Below are positions 39,917 to 53,280 of a DNA stretch of 64,000 bases, in pieces. The position numbers were made by a program, and so were the translations under genes. Source of the DNA: Planctomycetota bacterium (lineage in GTDB: Bacteria; Planctomycetota; Phycisphaerae; Phycisphaerales; SM1A02); contig JAQCEQ010000005.1 of the NCBI GenBank assembly GCA_027618565.1, positions 1-64,000 of the forward strand, read 5' to 3'. Numbering within the stretch: position 1 is the stretch's first letter; each line of letters begins with the position of its first letter. The notes under the pieces are model-generated. The model searched no databases and was not told the DNA's origin. It saw nothing but the letters and a program-made list of their open reading frames with translations.

Positions 39917-41205
39917 GCGTCACCCCTCAGGCCGCTTCGGTCGGCGATGTCACCCGTTGCCGCGGACTGTGCCGAGACCACGCTGGCCCGCCCCTGCTGC
40001 ACCGCGAGGACGTGCCACTCCCGGCCCGCGGCGACAAAGGTGTCTCCAGGGCGTGGCACCCGACCGAGCATCTCCGAGACCATTCCGGCCACCGTCGAGG
40101 CATGCATGGCCGGCAAGGCGCACTCGATGGCTTCCGTGCAGTCTGCGATGCTGGTCCGACCATCCAAGGTCACCGTTCCATCCGCGGCACGCGTCGGCAC
40201 GGCGGGGGTCGACTCACCTCGCGAGGCGATGTCTCCCACCAGCTGCTCAAGCGAGTCCTCCACAGCCACGATCCCCGCCGTCCCTCCGAATTCATCCACG
40301 ACGATCGCGATGTCAGCCTTTCGTGCCCGGAAAAACGAATCGAGCTGTCCCAGCGTGGCCAGCTCCGGGACGAAGGCCGCTGGGCGCGCACCCAAATCCT
40401 CCCCGCCACCCCGACTCACTGCCACCAGGAACTGGCGAACATCCAGGAGCCCCTCGACCTGGTCAAGATCTCCCTCACGGCAGACCACCAACCGGCGCAC
40501 TCGCCAGGCCCGCGCAGCCGCGATCACCAGTTCCGCCGTCGGCGACGAGGGGACCCACGCCAATTCCGTTCGCGGCGTCATCACGTCGCGCACGCGCAGT
40601 GTCCTGTGCACCATGAGCCGACGAAGAAGAAGCTCCTCATCGGTGGAGAGAGCCCCCACTTCCTCTCCTGCGGCGATGGCTTCCACCAGGTCCGCGCGCG
40701 TCAGGGGTCCCGTGCCCAGGGCGGGTCGACCGACGAGCCGATCGATCGGCTCGATCACCACGAAGGAGAGCAATCGCCGCACCGGTGCCGTCAGGACCAC
40801 CAGCGACCGCAGGGGACTGGCCACGCGCGGCGCGACTACCTCGCGCAGGATCATCGCCGTCGACTTGGGAAGCACCTCGCCAAGGGTCACGAGCCACATC
40901 ACCTGGGCCGCGCCGAGGGCGGCCACCGTCCACGCCGACGGCATGCGGACCGCCAGCGCCCCGCCGATGGCAAAGTACATCGTGTTGACCAGGACATTGG
41001 CCAGGAGCACCGTCGCCAGGAGTGAACGCGGATCGGAGCACAGCGCATCCACGACCAGTGCCTTCGCTGGCGAGCTTCGCCGCAGCGCCGCGCGCTGCGC
41101 ATGATCCAACCCGAAGAGCGCCGTCTCGCTGGCGGAGAAGAAGGCGCTGAGCACCGTCAGCGCGAGCATCGCCGCCACCTGCACGCCCAGTAGGACATCA
41201 TCCAC
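39913..41205 (-). CDS. CNNM/CBS protein with CorC-type C-terminus
   Basis: 430 residues. The DUF21/CNNM membrane domain starts at the N-terminus (TVLSAFFSASETALFGLDH, GEVLPKSTAMILR). A CBS pair follows (VMTPRTELAWVPS, VRRLVVCREGDLDQVEGLLD, and DIAIVVDEFGGTAGIVAVEDSLEQLVGDI), then a CorC/HlyC C-terminal domain of about 75 residues. The family works in Mg/Co homeostasis. GTG 41205 overlaps the hscB-like stop by 8 bases; the frame runs on upstream, but that part has no membrane-protein character. With the next gene it forms a coupled CNNM pair. Confidence 0.88.
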   Translation of the reverse strand: MDDVLLGVQVAAMLALTVLSAFFSASETALFGLDHAQRAALRRSSPAKALVVDALCSDPRSLLATVLLANVLVNTMYFAIGGALAVRMPSAWTVAALGAAQVMWLVTLGEVLPKSTAMILREVVAPRVASPLRSLVVLTAPVRRLLSFVVIEPIDRLVGRPALGTGPLTRADLVEAIAAGEEVGALSTDEELLLRRLMVHRTLRVRDVMTPRTELAWVPSSPTAELVIAAARAWRVRRLVVCREGDLDQVEGLLDVRQFLVAVSRGGGEDLGARPAAFVPELATLGQLDSFFRARKADIAIVVDEFGGTAGIVAVEDSLEQLVGDIASRGESTPAVPTRAADGTVTLDGRTSIADCTEAIECALPAMHASTVAGMVSEMLGRVPRPGDTFVAAGREWHVLAVQQGRASVVSAQSAATGDIADRSGLRGDA

Positions 41206-41698
41206 CGAAGACGCCCTCAGCCCCCTCGTTCCCCTGGGCGGCGGCGAGCAATCGATCCCAGTAGCGCCAACGGACACGTGCCCGCCGCGCGGCGGCGGCA
41301 TCGAGATCCCATGCCGCGGCAAACGCGGCAATCGCGTCGTCGCGTGCCTCTCGTGCCTGGCGCGCCATGGACTCCCGTGTGGCGTCATCGGCCCCGTCCA
41401 ACTCCATCCGCAGTGCCAGCGCGCGCTCCAGGTCCTCGGGCGGCAACGAGGGATCCTTCCCCCCACCGTCGGAGAGTCGCAGGAGCGCATCTGCGCGCCG
41501 GGCCGGGTCCGAGACGATGGCCACGGCCTGGTTCACGGCACCCGCCCGGGCGCCGTCTGCATCCCGCCCGGTGGCGTGCAGGTCCGGATGGGACTCTCGC
41601 AGCATCGCCACCTGCCGCCGCCTCACGTGGGCGATGTCGACCTCGAACGCACGCGCCACCCCCAGGATCTCAAACGGGTCGACGGCGGTGTCATCCAT
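41198..41698 (-). CDS. HscB-like J-domain co-chaperone
   Basis: 166 residues. It starts DPFEILGVARAFEVD and has the J-domain HPD motif in RESHPDLHAT near 37, which stimulates Hsp70 ATPase. The C-terminal three-helix part (LERALALRMELDGADD and ARVRWRYWDRLLAAA) matches HscB, the co-chaperone for iron-sulfur cluster transfer from IscU. The N-terminal cysteines of some HscB proteins are absent. It is not beside isc genes here but between the PilB-like gene and the CNNM pair, so the HscB call rests on sequence layout alone. Confidence 0.78.
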   Translation of the reverse strand: MDDTAVDPFEILGVARAFEVDIAHVRRRQVAMLRESHPDLHATGRDADGARAGAVNQAVAIVSDPARRADALLRLSDGGGKDPSLPPEDLERALALRMELDGADDATRESMARQAREARDDAIAAFAAAWDLDAAAARRARVRWRYWDRLLAAAQGNEGAEGVFGG

Positions 41699-41704
41699 GT
41701 CGAG

Positions 41705-43450
41705 TCATGAGTCCGATGACGCCACACGGTCCACCTCGTCCACGCTGGTCACGCCCTGCGCCGCCAGTTGCATGCCAAATCCCTGCAGCGAGATCCAGTG
41801 TTCGCCCTCCAGCGCGGTGCGGATGTCGGCGATGGTCGGCTTTCGCAGAATGACATCGCGCACCTGCTCCGAGACTTCCATCAGCTCGAAGAGTGCGCGG
41901 CGCCCGTGATAGCCGGTCGCCAGGCATGCACTGCATCCCTGCGGAACGAAGACCTCCTTGAGCCCGCCCACATGCTTGCCCATGCGAAGGACCTGCGCTG
42001 GGGTGGGTCGAACCGCGCGCTTGCAGCCGGGGCAGAGCAGCCGGATGAGCCGTTGCGCGATCGTGACGCCGAGGGAGTTGGCCACCAGATACGACTCCAC
42101 GCCCAGGTCCAGCAGTCGGAAGATGGCACCGATCGTGTCTCGCGCGTGGACGGTGGAGAAGACCAGGTGCCCGGTCATCGAGGCCTGCGTGGCGACGGTC
42201 GCGGTCTCGTTGTCGCGGATCTCGCCGACAAAGATGACGTCGGGGTCCTGCCGCAGGACGCTGCGGAGGATCTGCCCAAAACCGTGCCCTTGCTTGTGGT
42301 CCACGGGTACCTGCGTGCAGCCCTCAAGGTAGTACTCGACCGGGTCCTCGATCGTGATGCAGTTGCGGGAATCGATGTCGATCTCGCGAAGGCATGAGTA
42401 GATCGTCGTCGTCTTGCCGCTCCCCGTCGGCCCGGTGGAGAGCATGAGCCCCGAGTCGCGCTGCGCCATCGCCTTCAGCTTCTCAAACTGCCACGGCAAC
42501 AGCCCAAGTTCATGCAGCCGCGTGGGGGCGTTCCCGGAATCCAGCACGCGGATGACCAGCTTCTGCCCGTGCAGCGCCGGCGTGAGCGACACGCGGAAGT
42601 CCACACGCCGCCCGCTCACCGAAGCGCTGAAGTGCCCATCCTGCACCTGCGCCTTGAGGCTGGTGTCGATCTGGCAGAGGATCTTGACCACGCCCAGGAG
42701 CCGCCGCGAGAGATCCCCGGCGAATGTCGCGATCGACACCATCAGGCCGTCCACGCGGATGCGCACCGTCGTTTCATCACGCCGCGGCTCGACATGCAAG
42801 TCGGTGGCGCGGGAGCGGAAGCAGGCCAGGAGGAGGAGCTTGAAGAGCCGGATGCTCTCCGCTTCCGAGTCCGCGACCCTTCCGCGGCGCTCCAGCGCGG
42901 CACTGCCGGCGTGGTGCACCGTCGTGCCACGATTGTCAACCAGCCCAATGTCCTCCAACCCGAACGGCTTCTCCAGGGCGGCATCAATCACCTTGTAGAG
43001 CGACTGCTCGTACCCGGTCCGGGCCTCGTCGTCGGACACGGCGGTCGTCGCCGATTCGATGTCCAGGGTGGCCAGGCGCTGCGCCTGCGCGACCCGGTCC
43101 CGGACCCGCTTGGCCTCCTCCGGATCCAGGACCCCGACTCCCACCGGCTTGCGGGACGAGGCCTTCGGGTCGATGAACCGGATCTCCAGCGAGCCGATCC
43201 GGATGGTGTCACCGCTCGCCAGCTCGGTCGTGGCGACCCGCTCCCCGTTGAGTTTGGTGCCGTTGCGGCTCCCCAAGTCCCGCACCTGCCACATCCCGTT
43301 GGGGGCCGGCTCGATCACGCAATGCTTGCGCGACAGCCCCTCGTCATTGAAGTTCACGGCGTTCTCGGGGAGCCGACCAATGGTGACCGGTCCGCCACCC
43401 AGCGGAAGCTTGGTGATGCCTCTCGGTGTCTTGACTTCCAGAAAGGCCAT
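41705..43450 (-). CDS. PilB/GspE-type assembly ATPase with N-terminal FHA domain
   Basis: Hexameric ATPase driving pilus or pseudopilus assembly at the inner membrane. 581 residues. Residues 1-95 form an FHA domain (TIGRLPENAV, LSRKHCVIE, DLGSRNGTKLNGE), which binds phospho-threonine. The GspE core follows: RSRATDLHVEPR, Walker A STGPTGSGKTTT near 342, the Asp box TIEDPVEYYLEG, Walker B DPDVIFVGEIRD and the His box GHLVFSTVHARDT. A zinc-finger with two Cys pairs (CPGCKRA and CSAC) comes before the end. In most PilB/GspE proteins the N-terminus is a GspE_N/MshEN domain; here FHA replaces it. ATG 43450 is the start. It stops 6 bases before the hscB-like ATG. Confidence 0.92.
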   Translation of the reverse strand: MAFLEVKTPRGITKLPLGGGPVTIGRLPENAVNFNDEGLSRKHCVIEPAPNGMWQVRDLGSRNGTKLNGERVATTELASGDTIRIGSLEIRFIDPKASSRKPVGVGVLDPEEAKRVRDRVAQAQRLATLDIESATTAVSDDEARTGYEQSLYKVIDAALEKPFGLEDIGLVDNRGTTVHHAGSAALERRGRVADSEAESIRLFKLLLLACFRSRATDLHVEPRRDETTVRIRVDGLMVSIATFAGDLSRRLLGVVKILCQIDTSLKAQVQDGHFSASVSGRRVDFRVSLTPALHGQKLVIRVLDSGNAPTRLHELGLLPWQFEKLKAMAQRDSGLMLSTGPTGSGKTTTIYSCLREIDIDSRNCITIEDPVEYYLEGCTQVPVDHKQGHGFGQILRSVLRQDPDVIFVGEIRDNETATVATQASMTGHLVFSTVHARDTIGAIFRLLDLGVESYLVANSLGVTIAQRLIRLLCPGCKRAVRPTPAQVLRMGKHVGGLKEVFVPQGCSACLATGYHGRRALFELMEVSEQVRDVILRKPTIADIRTALEGEHWISLQGFGMQLAAQGVTSVDEVDRVASSDS

Positions 43451-43537
43451 GCCGCCTCGAACGATACCCCTTCGCCCATATTGCGCGCCGTGCCCCCGAT
43501 CAACTCCAGCGCACGACCGCCCCTGCGTCGTCATCCG

Positions 43538-44083
43538 TCAACGGCGTGGGCTGCTCGGGCCACTCCCTGGGCCCGGCGACGGGCCTCCGGTGGATGAGCC
43601 ACCGAACGGGCGCCCGCCACCTCCACTGCGATGCCAAGGGCGATGGCCCGGTCGACGTACCTCGCGCGGGGCATCGCCGCCTCCGGTCGCCCCACTCGAT
43701 GAACCGCCGCCGCTCGAGGAACCTGACGAGAACGCACTCGAACCAGGCCGACCCCCGAGAGGGCCGGGCGCTCGACCCGATCCCGGTCCGTCCGCGGCGC
43801 CTGCCGCATCCAGTTCAGCCTCTCGCGCCTTCTTGGCCTTCTTGTTGAGAGCCTCGGCCACGGTCAGGGGACGACCATGCAGCCTCCGGCCCGACAGGGC
43901 ATTGATCGCCAGCCTGCCCCGCTCCGCGTCACGGAACATCGCGATGGCAAAGCAGCGGGAGAGACCGGTTTCCGGATCCACTACGAGAACCAAGTCGTCC
44001 AGGTCTGGGAACGTGACGAAGAGCCTCCGGACATGCTCAGCAGTGGTCCGCTTGTCGAGGTTGCCGATGTAGATCTTGAACAT
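43538..44083 (-). CDS. RRM RNA-binding protein with Gly/Ser-rich tail
   Basis: 181 residues. The first 80 form an RNA recognition motif: RNP2 IYIGNL near 4-9 and an RNP1-like CFAIAMF near 45, followed by an ALSGRRLHGRPLTVAEA ending. The second half is low-complexity Gly/Ser/Pro/Arg, as in cold-inducible bacterial RRM proteins. It may act as an RNA chaperone. ATG 44083 begins MFKIYIGNL; codons upstream are unlikely to be used because they give an extra non-family N-terminus. It sits 110 bases past the rRNA terminator. Confidence 0.88.
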   Translation of the reverse strand: MFKIYIGNLDKRTTAEHVRRLFVTFPDLDDLVLVVDPETGLSRCFAIAMFRDAERGRLAINALSGRRLHGRPLTVAEALNKKAKKAREAELDAAGAADGPGSGRAPGPLGGRPGSSAFSSGSSSGGGSSSGATGGGDAPREVRRPGHRPWHRSGGGGRPFGGSSTGGPSPGPGSGPSSPRR

Positions 44084-44192
44084 GGGACGAGGCAGGAAGT
44101 GAAGACAAACCAGTCCCCGGAACCAGTCCCCGGGGAAAGACTCAAGTGTAGCCACTCGAGCGATCGCGCCGACAAGCGGGCCCCAAAATGGA

Positions 44193-44226: not shown

Positions 44227-44230
44227 CAAA

Positions 44231-44338
44231 GTCGGCGATGACCTACTTTCCCGCGTGGCAGTATCATCGGCGGCTTGGTCTTCACTGCTGTGTTCGAGAT
44301 GGGAACAGGTGTTTCCCCAAGCCTATGGTCACCGACAA
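44231..44338 (-). rRNA. rrf: 5S ribosomal RNA
   Basis: About 108 bases on the minus strand with complementary ends (TTGTCGGTGACC ... GTCATCGCCGAC) and the conserved core CCCATCTCGAACACAGCAGTGAAG and GGGAAAGTAGGTC. The exact ends are estimated from the terminal helix. It is followed at once by a strong terminator and preceded by 23S with a 160-base spacer that has no tRNA. Confidence 0.93.
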
Positions 44339-44499
44339 GTCTCCGGGTCGCGTGTCCGCGGCCCGAAGCGTTGAGATCGAAGGTTCATGGTGGTGCCCGG
44401 GGCTCCTTTGCAGGATCCTCGGCGTCCACGACGCAATCCAGAATATGAGCAGCAAGGCCTGCCGTTACCAGTCCGTCGTCAAGACGGGACCTGGTAGAC

Positions 44500-47267
<2,768 letters not shown>

Positions 47268-47656: not shown

Positions 47657-49678
47657 CTAGTTTCCGCCCGGGCTTGGAGCGCCGCCGCTGCCCTCTCCGA
47701 ATGAACCAGAGCCGCTTCCGTCCTTGGCGGCGTTGCTCCCCTTGTCCGCGACGGGAGCATTCTTCTGCAGTCTCCAATCGTCGTCGAACTCCTGCCTGAT
47801 CGGGGAACGGGCGTCCGTCGCACTGCTCCGGATCTGTATGAGCTCGCCCGAGGTGGCGTCCTGCAGCACGACGAGGAAGGACGCAGACTCCCCAGTGGCA
47901 GGACCACCAGAGCCGTCCACCCGCTGTGGGGTCAGGTCACGCTCGATCCCGGCCACCAACCAGCCGGATCCGAAGTCAATGCCTTCGGGAACGCGAGTGC
48001 TGCCACCGCCGACCTCATCACCGATGGAATAGGTATCAATGGTCTTCTGGACCTTGCCGTTGACGGATCGATAGACCTCGAACTTCGCGCGCGCCAATGA
48101 TGTTCCAAAGTCCACGCTGGTGAGGAAAAACTGGGTCAGCGATCGCACTTTGATGGGGGCACTCCACTCGCTGGGCGAGGATTGGATGAAGGGCGATTTC
48201 GCCAGCGAGGTCTGTTCTGGGGACAAGAGAGCCTCGCGCCCGAAGAACGGATTCCAGTGCCTCAAGACCGCACGGTATCGGTAGGTGTGTTCGGGCACGG
48301 CATCCGTGTCGTGCGTCCAGGCCTGACCGGAGTCCTGGCTGCAGGGATCCACTTCCGTCGGGTCCTCGGTCGGCACAGTCACCTGGATGGACTCGGCCAC
48401 ACCGAGGGACTTGGCCAGTTCCACAAGTTCCGCCACGTCCTTCTCCAGCTTTGTCCGCTGGCGCGTCTTCGTCCACCGATCGTCTTCCTGCCGCTGTCGC
48501 TCCTTCTCTTCCTTCTTGGCGTCGCCCCCGGTTCGCCTCCCGCTGAAGGCACCACCGCCCATGCCAAATCCGCCACCGCCGCCGGCACCGGAGCCCGGAT
48601 CCCCGGCATCCGGCTTCTTGGCCCGATCGCGCTTGATCTTCTGGTACTCCTCGTCGGAGATTGGACCACCCAAGTCCTTCAGCTCGGCCGTCCGCTTGGC
48701 GATCAGCTTTTGCTTGGCCGCAATCTGCTTCTGGATGATGACGAGGTCCCGGGCGGAATCCGAGACGTCAGAGCCGGACACTGGGGCGGGGGGCTCCGAT
48801 GCCCCTGCGGCATCGGCTGCGTTGAGCGAGATTTCTGCCTTTGGATTCTGCGTGGGCGGCGCGTCCGGCTGCAGAATCTTGGACTTCAGGGGCGAGTCAC
48901 CCAGCGCCACGAGAAGCTCGTCGCGAAGGTTGGTCTGGATGCCCTGCTCGAGGCCAGGACGAATCGACTCGTTCTCCCCGACCCACCAGCCAATCGGGAC
49001 TTCCGTCACCCGCCCCCACTCGCCGTTGGGCTGCAGTTCCTGGCGCTCGAAGACGACATCCGCGAAGAGCGGGCACCCGCCGTACCAGTGCGAGGGGATC
49101 GCTCCCAGCGCTGGCAGGGCGGACGGCTCGGCTCGCGCTAGCTGCGCGCGCGCGGCGGCAAAATCGACCGTGGCGATCGGCGTGACCCAGACGACATCGC
49201 TCCTCTCGGCCGGGTTCGCATCGCCCGACGACGGCGGTCCGGAACCATCGGCCCATGCGTCCATGAACTGCACGGTCCTCATTCCCGTCGGGGCCGCAAA
49301 GGCCGGCACGGCGTAGACCGCACTCCGCCCGGCGTCCTCCTTCAGGAGAATTCCAGCGACACGTGGCCGGAGGGCCACCAGTTCCGACCCCGGGAACACT
49401 CCTCCCGAGAGCCGCTCCTTGAACGCATCCACCTCATTGCCGATGGGTACGTCGATCTCAACGGGGCCGCCGTCGTGCATGCTGCGCTTCAGCCTTGCCG
49501 CGGCATCGGACAGTGCCTTGTCGAGGTCGCCGATCCCCTGCGGGCGGCCGTTGACCCTGACCTGCGTGCCGTTGAGTGCGAACTCCCAGACGGCAGCGCC
49601 GACGGCCAGGACGGCGAAGAGACCGACCACGACCTTCTCGAAGTGTCGTTCGGCGACGGAGATGCCCTGCTTCTTCAT
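47657..49678 (-). CDS. Single-span membrane protein in the pilus assembly cluster
   Basis: 673 residues that I do not recognise. A short basic N-terminus (KKQGISVAERHFEK) precedes one membrane span (VVVGLFAVLAVGAAVWEFAL), so most of the protein is periplasmic. A coiled-coil-like Lys/Glu segment lies near 310-345 and 385-425, split by a Gly-rich patch (GGGGGFGMGGG). The later half contains beta-rich text such as HTYRYRAVLRHWNPFFGR. Immediately downstream of two other inner-membrane pilus-like genes, it probably forms part of the same periplasmic platform, which is inference. Ends in a Gly/Ser-rich tail. Confidence 0.72.
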   Translation of the reverse strand: MKKQGISVAERHFEKVVVGLFAVLAVGAAVWEFALNGTQVRVNGRPQGIGDLDKALSDAAARLKRSMHDGGPVEIDVPIGNEVDAFKERLSGGVFPGSELVALRPRVAGILLKEDAGRSAVYAVPAFAAPTGMRTVQFMDAWADGSGPPSSGDANPAERSDVVWVTPIATVDFAAARAQLARAEPSALPALGAIPSHWYGGCPLFADVVFERQELQPNGEWGRVTEVPIGWWVGENESIRPGLEQGIQTNLRDELLVALGDSPLKSKILQPDAPPTQNPKAEISLNAADAAGASEPPAPVSGSDVSDSARDLVIIQKQIAAKQKLIAKRTAELKDLGGPISDEEYQKIKRDRAKKPDAGDPGSGAGGGGGFGMGGGAFSGRRTGGDAKKEEKERQRQEDDRWTKTRQRTKLEKDVAELVELAKSLGVAESIQVTVPTEDPTEVDPCSQDSGQAWTHDTDAVPEHTYRYRAVLRHWNPFFGREALLSPEQTSLAKSPFIQSSPSEWSAPIKVRSLTQFFLTSVDFGTSLARAKFEVYRSVNGKVQKTIDTYSIGDEVGGGSTRVPEGIDFGSGWLVAGIERDLTPQRVDGSGGPATGESASFLVVLQDATSGELIQIRSSATDARSPIRQEFDDDWRLQKNAPVADKGSNAAKDGSGSGSFGEGSGGAPSPGGN

Positions 49679-49711
49679 CGTGTTCCTCTCGTCTGCGATG
49701 CGTTCATGTGT

Positions 49712-51061
49712 TCATCCGCCCAGTCCAACGTCATCTGCCCCGGCGCCTGCCGAGGGGTCACCATTGGTATCGGCGCCATCCATCGGGCCGCCGCAGCGCG
49801 CACCCAGCCGCGCGCGGACGACCTCGGGCATGAGGTCGCAGGTCCAGCCGCGGAGCCAGACCGTCTCCAGTTCCAGGTGCAGGAGCGAGCACGGCTCGCT
49901 GCCATAGATGAACCCCTCACGCGCCGCCGCAAAGGAGTCGACGGGCGTCAGCCGCGCGTTGACGATGGTGACAAAATTCTGGGTCGCGAGCGCATCCACG
50001 AACCGGGGCACGCCTCGAGTCTCCACCACCACATCGATTCTGACGCGCACGAGGTCCGCAATGTCATTGGAGGCGCGGCCCGTGTGGTACTGCCTGAAAT
50101 CCTTCCCCGGCATCGCCGCAGGAGCCATGGAGTCCGCATCGGCAAGCCCGGCAGGCGCGGATTCCTTCTCCGGGTAGATCGGCCCAAAGTAGAGCGCCGT
50201 CAACCGCTTGACCGGTGCCGTGAGGAGGGAGTCGAAGCCCTGGTTGGCCCCGACGATCGCACCCACCATGTCCTCGACGATCCACAGGCGCCACAACTGC
50301 GCGTGCATCTGCACGATCTCCAGCTTTGGGAACGACGACGACGGCATTCCCGCCGCAAAGGGGTCGCCGTAGAACCGAAGCCCGCGAGCGGCATCGCGAT
50401 ACTCGGCCAGCCGCACCGCGGCGAGCTTGGATCGGAGCGCCGCTTCTTGGTCTGGCTCCAGCTTCATGCCGGCGGGCGCCTCGAACTCGCCCGCCATCAG
50501 TTGGGCCTCTCGAACCTGCACATTCTTGAGGACCAGTTCCGCAGGCGGCGGGGACCCGGCATCGACGGACCGGAAGAGGTCGAGGTACGACTGCACCAAT
50601 GCCTCGTGGAAGTTCTCTGGAAAGACCGGGATTTCGCCCTTGAATTCGTCCTTGGCCATGTCGCGGAGGTCCACCGTGCGACCGGGACGAGTGGACTTCA
50701 AGAGGGCGTGTTCGCCGCGGTTGCGGTCGATCGCGGTCTGGTCCACCCCGATGCTGCCGGCCAGGATCTGGTCCACGCGCTCCCGGAGCGCCCGAACCAG
50801 TTCGGCGCTGGCGATGCCCGAGTACTCAAACGGTGCTTGCTGCCCGGGGATGTCGAGCGAGATCGCCGGACTCACCTGGCCGGCACGATCGAGCGCGGAA
50901 ATATCCTGCGCCAGCAATTCGGCTTTCTTGGCGACCGCCTCTCGTTGGCCGGAGCCGAAGTACCAGCCCGCCACAGGCACGCTCACCGCCACCAGGCCGA
51001 GGATGATAAAGGACACATTCGACTTGAGGACGGCGGTGACCTGCTGGTATTGGTTGCTCAA
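49712..51061 (-). CDS. PilO-like single-span membrane protein
   Basis: 449 residues with a cytoplasmic stub, one span (VSFIILGLVAVSVPVAGWYFG) and a large periplasmic part. The order pilM-fusion then this gene is that of pilM-pilN-pilO, and the topology fits PilO/GspM, but no clear family motif was seen, so the name is by position only. It starts with TTG at 51061, overlapping the pilM stop as TTGA; this rare start with coupling suggests tight control of its dose relative to PilM. A Gly/Asp-rich C-terminus closes it. Confidence 0.7.
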   Translation of the reverse strand: MSNQYQQVTAVLKSNVSFIILGLVAVSVPVAGWYFGSGQREAVAKKAELLAQDISALDRAGQVSPAISLDIPGQQAPFEYSGIASAELVRALRERVDQILAGSIGVDQTAIDRNRGEHALLKSTRPGRTVDLRDMAKDEFKGEIPVFPENFHEALVQSYLDLFRSVDAGSPPPAELVLKNVQVREAQLMAGEFEAPAGMKLEPDQEAALRSKLAAVRLAEYRDAARGLRFYGDPFAAGMPSSSFPKLEIVQMHAQLWRLWIVEDMVGAIVGANQGFDSLLTAPVKRLTALYFGPIYPEKESAPAGLADADSMAPAAMPGKDFRQYHTGRASNDIADLVRVRIDVVVETRGVPRFVDALATQNFVTIVNARLTPVDSFAAAREGFIYGSEPCSLLHLELETVWLRGWTCDLMPEVVRARLGARCGGPMDGADTNGDPSAGAGADDVGLGG

Positions 51062-53280
51062 TACGACTCTCCGTCGAGGGATGCTTCCGGTGCCGGCGCC
51101 AGCGCCGGGCCGGCCGATCCCTTCAATCGTGCGATGAAGGTGATCGTGGCGCGATACCAGGTGTCGTCTGGACCCACGAGCGCCGGGGAAGCCGGGATGG
51201 GGGCCAGTTCTTCGAGTGACTTGGATTCCGCAGAGGGAGTCCCGCTCGAACCGGCACCAGTCCCGGCACCGGAGGCTCCTTGCTGGCCGCCACCTGAACT
51301 GCCGACGCTCCCGCCATCGCTTGAACCCGGAAATTTTTCACCTCCGGACTCGGAGCCGGACATCGTTCCAGCACCGCCGCCGGATCGCTGCCCGGCGGGT
51401 GGCTTTCGGCGACCCTTGATCGCTCCTCCGCCAGCGCTTCCCGACTCATTACCGCCGCCGGAGTCGGCACCGCTATTGCCAGAGAGGCCGAATCCGCCGG
51501 ATCCGCCGGATGAGCCGGCACCGAATCCCGCGCCGGCATTCGCGCCTGAACCGTCCGTGGAGGTGCTCCCAAATCCAGGTGGAGAGTCTGGTGAGCCGGC
51601 AGAGGCCTTGCCGCCGACGGTGATGATGGCACCGATCAACTTCTCGTCATCGATGATGATGTCGTATGGAGCGTCGTCGCGTTTGGCATGCTTGCGCAGC
51701 CACTCCGCGGCGGTGTCGTTGAGGAATCGCTTTTCGCCCTCGTTGGTGAACTCGATCTCAAGGGTTACGACGATGTCGCGAGTCCCCTTCGAGGCGTCGA
51801 ACCGGTACTCACCCTTGAGATCCTCCAGCGTGATCAGCCTGCGATCCTTCGCGGGAATCGCGTTGATGGCATCCACATCGGACCCCAGCAGTGCCGGCCC
51901 TGGATTGGTGGACCACAGTGCCGCGTAGGAGTCGGCGATGATCCACGGCCAGACCTCCCGGTCGTCCAGCAGCGCGCGGTACGGAGCGGTCGAGGCATTC
52001 GCGGCGATCCGACCCACTAGCTGCTGCGCATCTTCCGCGTATTTCTTTGCCTCGTCCTGGGCAGCCGACACTTCGACCGGCAGCGTCCCGCTCCCCAGCA
52101 GGCCGGCCTCGACGAACGGCGCGATGAAGAACGCCGCGCCCGTAGCCACTCCCAAGGCGGCGGCCGCGGCAAAATACGGGACTTTCGTCCGCCAGAGCGA
52201 CTTGCGCGCGATCGCGGTCGGGATGAGGTTGATCTTGATCGAGGACTCCCCAAGCGCCTGGAGCGCCAGCCCGTACGCCGTAGCAAGGTTCACGGTGTTG
52301 GCGGCAAAGTCTGCGGCCTCGGTCCCCTCCATGCGAATGCGCTTGAACTCGTCCCAGCGGGCGATCTGGATGTTGACTTGCCCACCGACGAACTTTCGCA
52401 GTCCGGTCAGCCGCAGCGTGCCACCGACCCCAACCACATTGCGGACCTCCGCGTTGGGGTTGACGGTCTGGTAGTGCTCGACGGAGCGCCGGAATTCGTC
52501 GATGAATTGCTCGTACGCCCCCCCCATCGCGCGGATCACCTCGCGCGCGTGCTTGCCCGTGGCCCCGGCCAGCTTGGCGGCCTCGGCCTTGGGATAGGCG
52601 CACTTGAACGCCGCGGCGATCGCCTCGGTGAACTGGTGGCCACCGACAGAGAATGTCCTGAGGTAGCAGCTGCCGTCCTGCGCCGCAATGAAGTCCGTCG
52701 ATGCGCTGCCGACGTCCACAAGCGCGACTGTCCCCGAGGGCGTGCCACCCTGGATGTCGTAGACGAACGCGTTGTAGAGCGCCACGGGGCTCAGGGTCAC
52801 GATGCCGGGAAAGAGGCCGCACTCCGCATAGAGCTCCAGTGTCTCGCGGAGTCGCTCCTTGGTGATCGCAAAAATCCCCACGCGGACGATTTCCGCCCCC
52901 TCCGGGGCGAAGATCTGCGAGTCCCACTCCACCTCATCGATGGGGAATGGGATCTGCTGCTCCGCCTCGTACTGCACCATCTCCGGGATGCGCTTCTTGT
53001 CCACCGGCGGGAGCGAGACGAATCGAGCCAGGGCCTGGTTTCCGGGCACGCTGACGGCCACGGAGTCCTTCCCCAATTGCTCGGAGTAAGCCTGCACGAA
53101 CTGGACGAGCGTGTGCCGAACCATGGCGGGGATGTCCAGCCCCGGAGTGGTCAATACCTTTTGGTGCCGAATGACGGTGAAGTCAGTGACGGTGACGCCG
53201 TCGGTGCCGGGCTCCAGGCGGATGGCCTTGATTCCCGATGCGCCAAGTTCGATGCCCCATGCTCCGTTCGATCGTGCCAT
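51058..53280 (-). CDS. PilM-like protein fused to a PilN-like membrane segment
   Basis: 740 residues. Residues 1-345 are the actin-like PilM fold: WGIELGASGIKAIRLE, SVPGNQALARFVSLPP, EAEQQIPFPIDEVEWD, VALVDVGSASTDF and VGGHQFTEAIA. PilM binds PilN on the cytoplasmic face of the type IV pilus platform. After it comes a hydrophobic span near 367-390 (YFAAAAALGVATGAAFFIAPF) and a periplasmic part, so PilM and PilN appear to be one chain. Residues about 560-690 are an extreme Gly/Ser-rich linker, followed by a short conserved-looking end (DDTWYRATITFIARLKG). GGAG stands 9 bases before ATG 53280. A TATGAT -10-like box lies near 53328. Confidence 0.87.
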   Translation of the reverse strand: MARSNGAWGIELGASGIKAIRLEPGTDGVTVTDFTVIRHQKVLTTPGLDIPAMVRHTLVQFVQAYSEQLGKDSVAVSVPGNQALARFVSLPPVDKKRIPEMVQYEAEQQIPFPIDEVEWDSQIFAPEGAEIVRVGIFAITKERLRETLELYAECGLFPGIVTLSPVALYNAFVYDIQGGTPSGTVALVDVGSASTDFIAAQDGSCYLRTFSVGGHQFTEAIAAAFKCAYPKAEAAKLAGATGKHAREVIRAMGGAYEQFIDEFRRSVEHYQTVNPNAEVRNVVGVGGTLRLTGLRKFVGGQVNIQIARWDEFKRIRMEGTEAADFAANTVNLATAYGLALQALGESSIKINLIPTAIARKSLWRTKVPYFAAAAALGVATGAAFFIAPFVEAGLLGSGTLPVEVSAAQDEAKKYAEDAQQLVGRIAANASTAPYRALLDDREVWPWIIADSYAALWSTNPGPALLGSDVDAINAIPAKDRRLITLEDLKGEYRFDASKGTRDIVVTLEIEFTNEGEKRFLNDTAAEWLRKHAKRDDAPYDIIIDDEKLIGAIITVGGKASAGSPDSPPGFGSTSTDGSGANAGAGFGAGSSGGSGGFGLSGNSGADSGGGNESGSAGGGAIKGRRKPPAGQRSGGGAGTMSGSESGGEKFPGSSDGGSVGSSGGGQQGASGAGTGAGSSGTPSAESKSLEELAPIPASPALVGPDDTWYRATITFIARLKGSAGPALAPAPEASLDGESY

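Follow-up and report, generated by a model that had tools for sequence, protein, structure and literature searches.

c-di-GMP, acting through an MshEN domain, or protein inhibitors are known to tune PilB/GspE-type assembly ATPases. FHA domains have been described before among assembly ATPases: class III CpaF, the Tad pilus ATPase, has been published with an N-terminal FHA domain and a disordered region (PMC12019362). Besides FHA-CpaF, our literature search returned only FHA proteins that are unrelated; no description of an FHA domain within the GspE/PilB branch was found, which is weak evidence of absence. Two further systems are relevant for comparison: TfpB, a second extension motor of Acinetobacter, which is not encoded with PilC and acts in the same pilus system (PMC8213720), and DgcB, a self-peptide of which offers a hydrophobic +3 residue to its FHA domain, GarA and OdhI being similar (PMC6733907).

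The window (the whole stretch of DNA analysed, 64,000 nucleotides) contains a gene for a protein that begins with an FHA domain and continues through a disordered linker and a small conserved module to a GspE/PilB-type ATPase consisting of the N2 domain and the core (Table 1). The Pfam matches are strong for both FHA (E 1.7e-18, 67.3 bits, cut-off 20.7) and T2SSE (E 1.4e-100, 336.9 bits). The enclosing ORF spans 41705..43534 on the minus strand, and the protein start was taken at 43450 (MAFLEVK), which is supported by the N-termini of homologues beginning at the same point. The intact frame in orthologues, at 84% to ~40% identity, and the invariance of the pocket residues exclude a chance match or a broken gene.

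Table 1. Features of the FHA-ATPase locus and of related loci; positions without a locus name refer to the window.
Feature	Position	Strand	Details and basis
FHA-GspE/PilB-type ATPase gene	41705..43450	-	581 aa, MAFLEVK...VASSDS; Pfam FHA + T2SSE
FHA domain	43166..43450	-	aa 1-95; pocket G25 R26, S40 R41 H43, N63 G64
Disordered variable linker	43019..43165	-	aa 96-144; partly low pLDDT, poorly conserved columns
Linker motif T128-L-D-I-E132, candidate phosphothreonine ligand	43055..43069	-	motif conservation
Small conserved module (helix + hairpin), linker to N2 domain	42884..43018	-	consensus YExxLRxIIxAAxxKPFxExDIxLVDxRGVTxHQA
T2SSE ATPase, N2 domain + RecA-like core	41726..42868	-	Pfam, conserved catalytic residues
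Walker A of T2SSE ATPase	about 42413-42433	-	
Tetracysteine C473/C476/C506/C509	about 41924-42034	-	
RRM RNA-binding protein gene, co-directional upstream neighbour	43538..44155	-	Pfam RRM_1
HscB-like co-chaperone gene, downstream	41198..41698	-	Pfam HSCB_C
23S/5S rRNA genes	44230-47266	-	
PilM-like operon	47657..53280	-	Pfam/NCBIfam searches
PilM/Amuc_1101-like gene of the operon	51058-53280	-	
Gene of the operon without family match	49712-51061	-	
Gene of the operon without family match	47657-49678	-	
~117-aa protein, relative	L128:5039-5572		
~117-aa protein, relative	L130:11243-11593		
~117-aa protein, relative	L132:9333-9710		
~117-aa protein, relative	L133:8639-8992		
~117-aa protein, relative	L134:5880-6248		
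~117-aa protein, relative	L136:8550-9011		
~117-aa protein, relative	L137:8096-8473		
~117-aa protein, relative	L138:8396-8773		
FHA then HD-type domain, another FHA fusion of the same genome	L009:274-2109		
Ser/Thr kinase gene and PilC-PilB(MshEN) pair (L116, L109, L120)	G000:C25:52002-56091		kinase on opposite strand

The first-pass annotation had described a complete FHA domain with all phosphothreonine (pThr) contacts at the position of MshEN, and had made its reading depend on conservation of these residues. Both the description and the conservation were confirmed: the pocket motifs (GR, SRxH/Q, NG) are intact in all 64 homologues that were read, and G25, R26, S40, R41, N63 and G64 do not vary among 29 aligned orthologues or within a 54-sequence N-terminal alignment, where residue numbers are one higher. 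AlphaFold2 predicts the FHA fold at pLDDT 95-98 (N-terminal 218 residues, 54 homologues), and the predicted fold resembles GarA, OdhI and FhaA with TM scores of about 0.8-0.9 (target-normalised), the DgcB FHA domain being matched as well. Sequence profile search places Rv1747 FHA, GarA, FhaA, EmbR and OdhI nearest among PDB entries. In the same N-terminal model the linker contains low-confidence stretches, and the helix-hairpin module ahead of the N2 domain is confident. The full-length model (29 orthologues), of modest confidence with a mean pLDDT of 66, matches PilB, PilF and GspE together with GarA-type FHA domains in PDB.

Some FHA-fold domains of secretion systems act as structural docking modules, and the FHA domain of this motor could likewise, in the manner of the YscD-type FHA fold, hold the motor to its platform independently of phosphorylation. 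The Pfam model Yop-YscD_cpl does match, but more weakly than FHA itself (46 vs 67 bits), and R26, S40 and N63 do not vary across the class, although a domain with a purely structural role could do without them; we consider such docking improbable.

Pfam detected no MshEN domain in the 581-aa protein (E<=0.1). Comparison by hhalign with the MshEN domains of the same genome yielded a probability of 0.1% for the linker and 0.3% for the whole N-terminus, whereas two halves of the MshEN set, used as the positive control, matched each other at 94.9%. An MshEN domain hidden between FHA and the core is ruled out by these searches, and the replacement of MshEN proposed in the first-pass annotation stands. 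The location of FHA in the place of MshEN, its conserved pocket and the lack of a hidden MshEN make control by Ser/Thr phosphorylation the natural reading.

A survey of the fusion across genomes, which had been suggested as a check, covered Planctomycetota; a single genome-contig scan returned close relatives only. With membership set at 573 bits or more (the next ATPases drop to 454 bits), the family was found in 67 of the 248 genomes sampled from its class, which is Phycisphaerae as judged by named relatives, and in two of 272 other genomes of the phylum, both from one taxonomic family. In 41 related genomes orthologues separate from paralogues by score. Maximum-likelihood analysis groups the FHA-bearing sequences, together with one copy truncated by its contig, in a single clade (support 99/95), to which neither the four MshEN paralogues nor the homologues with membrane segments from other planctomycetes belong. 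This clade suggests that the fusion arose once and was inherited mostly vertically; judged from these comparisons, the gene family is old and has been vertically kept in one planctomycete class. The FHA-GspE/PilB fusion is real, conserved and moderately surprising, and its class-wide conservation suggests that protein kinases, not c-di-GMP, may control this motor.

Five members (G114, G241, G222, G148 and G103), whose profile match began after the FHA, were considered as cases of FHA loss; on reading, FHA is present in all of them. Outside the class, homologues from families f49 and f73 (~480 bits) carry N-terminal hydrophobic, membrane-like segments and not FHA, as seen by eye. Three loci of f49 (L085, L087 and L107) have the same ATPase core, with membrane-like N-terminal segments replacing MshEN or FHA.

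Walker A and B, the Asp box, the His box and the four cysteines are invariant in 29 sequences, and the protein is best explained as a GspE/PilB-branch assembly ATPase that, as predicted from its complete catalytic residues, is active. Its best NCBIfam score was obtained with GspE (TIGR02533, 397.5 bits, curated cut-off 630.25), followed by the PilB equivalog (TIGR02538, 381.4 bits, cut-off 675.65), while the TadA model TIGR03819 gave 42.7 bits against a cut-off of 373.15, which places the protein outside the CpaF/TadA branch. By its sequence the ATPase belongs to the GspE/PilB branch, with GspE and PilB closest by NCBIfam, though it scores below both cut-offs. The first-pass reading is weakened here, in that the machine served may be either a pilus or a secretion pseudopilus. 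The slightly higher GspE score, together with a weak GspL match of the upstream PilM-like protein, is what could be expected if the ATPase served protein secretion, driving a T2SS-like pseudopilus instead of a surface pilus. However, both scores are far under their cut-offs, and the compared neighbourhoods contain no pilus or secretion operon save the PilM-like one, so that we regard a pseudopilus as possible but not probable.

The FHA motor gene sits between the genes for the RRM protein and the HscB-like co-chaperone, and 23S and 5S rRNA genes, with no 16S gene within the window, stand between it and the PilM-like operon; contigs of several relatives end near the 23S/5S position. The block of RRM, FHA-ATPase, HscB, rRNA and PilM-like genes is retained wholly or partly in a few close relatives, and in other genomes the FHA-ATPase gene lies among unrelated genes, for example transhydrogenase (named by eye) and POR. 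The two proteins encoded after the Amuc_1101-like PilM (449 and 673 aa) are conserved in relatives at ~30% identity and may be PilN/PilO/Amuc_1100-like; neither has a Pfam or NCBIfam match. Of the PilM/PilO-like partners named at first pass, the PilM-like one is supported by a family match and the ‘PilO-like’ ones are not; the 23S/5S genes separate all of them from the FHA motor gene, to which they are close in a few near relatives only. No PilC, kinase or prepilin gene was found beside the FHA-ATPase gene in the window and 22 fetched neighbourhoods, PilC having been searched around orthologues by BLAST with the PilC of the same genome as the query. In eight relatives a small protein of ~117 aa, which no Pfam family matches, is encoded next to the FHA-ATPase or one gene off.

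The genome (2.26 Mb, 97% complete) encodes five ATPases of the PilB/GspE type, the FHA one and four with MshEN (contigs C16, C25 and, twice, C30). Each of the three PilC genes adjoins an ATPase of the MshEN type, which makes the FHA motor an orphan. It would probably share a PilC platform with another motor, as TfpB does in Acinetobacter. The expectation that c-di-GMP has been abandoned applies to this motor and not to the genome, where four other ATPases keep MshEN and one GGDEF gene is present. Ser/Thr kinases, assumed to be abundant, are few: four Pkinase genes were found, none adjoining the FHA-ATPase gene. Kinase control of the ATPase accordingly has the position of FHA and the conserved pThr pocket in its favour, and the small number of kinases and their lack of linkage against it. 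Four FHA proteins are encoded in the genome, the other three carrying HD, SpoIIE phosphatase and histidine-kinase-type ATPase domains. On contig C25 one of the four Pkinase genes, for a Ser/Thr kinase of 519 aa with a weak PEGA match, adjoins a PilC-PilB(MshEN) pair, a possible link between kinase and pilus.

We favour, as fairly probable, the reading that this is an additional assembly motor and that pThr binding would gate its recruitment or activity; phospho-control of the FHA motor is likely. A Ser/Thr kinase would phosphorylate a threonine on a partner in the machine (the platform or a PilM/N/O-like protein) or, alternatively and in the motor's own family, T128 of the linker in the motif TLDIE. 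Binding of pThr by FHA would then recruit, release or assemble the hexamer, and phosphorylation would switch the extension of a pilus or pseudopilus. Counting against a gated motor are the four kinases, none of them linked, and the lack of a linked platform or pilin gene.

The linker stretch around T128 is AQRLATLDIESA. Of the 23 members in the motor's own taxonomic family, 18 have the pattern T[LIVM]D[ILVMFW] in the linker and five lack it, compared with 0.6 expected by shuffling, an expectation that ignores shared ancestry, though the surrounding linker has diverged; the Thr column is conserved in 20 of 23 members and most neighbouring linker columns in about 4-12. The motor could work by a cis-switch only, with FHA binding the motor's own phosphorylated T128, in cis or between adjacent subunits, and no external partner involved; by the logic of GarA, OdhI and DgcB this would lock or stabilise the hexamer. 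A conserved linker threonine with a hydrophobic +3 residue, as in these proteins, makes self-binding a proposal and not a result, and the nearest solved FHA domains do include self-binding ones (PMC6733907). The motif is, however, found in one of 41 members from other taxonomic families, despite the same FHA pocket, and its conservation inside one family is partly due to ancestry; we consider an exclusive cis-switch rather unlikely. Doubtful, too, is the fuller form of the gated-motor reading, in which class-wide GspE/PilB-branch motors with a pThr reader for MshEN would, in this family, have the linker threonine as the ligand of a kinase-operated switch.

If true, a conserved sister family with a pThr reader at the MshEN position would couple the assembly of pili or secretion machinery directly to Ser/Thr kinases, as a counterpart to the FHA-CpaF of Tad pili; this reading is testable at the level of residues (R26, S40, N63 and T128).

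Like TfpB, the FHA motor is an additional motor of the PilB type that stands apart in phylogeny and whose gene does not accompany PilC; it differs in scoring 332.7 against the TfpB cut-off of 850, which makes it a member of another family, and no FHA is mentioned for TfpB in the accessible text (PMC8213720). With class III CpaF it shares the domain logic of FHA, disordered linker and an assembly ATPase of the T2SSE superfamily. However, class III CpaF, mostly from betaproteobacteria, belongs to the CpaF branch, whereas the motor described here belongs to the GspE/PilB branch and has four invariant cysteines, and a tad locus was not seen around its gene. In common with PilB, GspE and MshE the motor has the N2 domain and a catalytic core whose Walker, Asp, His and cysteine motifs are invariant, and there are structural matches; in place of their MshEN domain it has FHA, the linker and the small module. 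Finally, the FHA domain resembles those of GarA, OdhI and DgcB (1.4-2 A rmsd, 27-34% identity), and a candidate threonine with a hydrophobic +3 residue again lies in a flexible stretch, but in the FHA motor this candidate motif comes after the FHA domain, and an assembly ATPase serves as the output.
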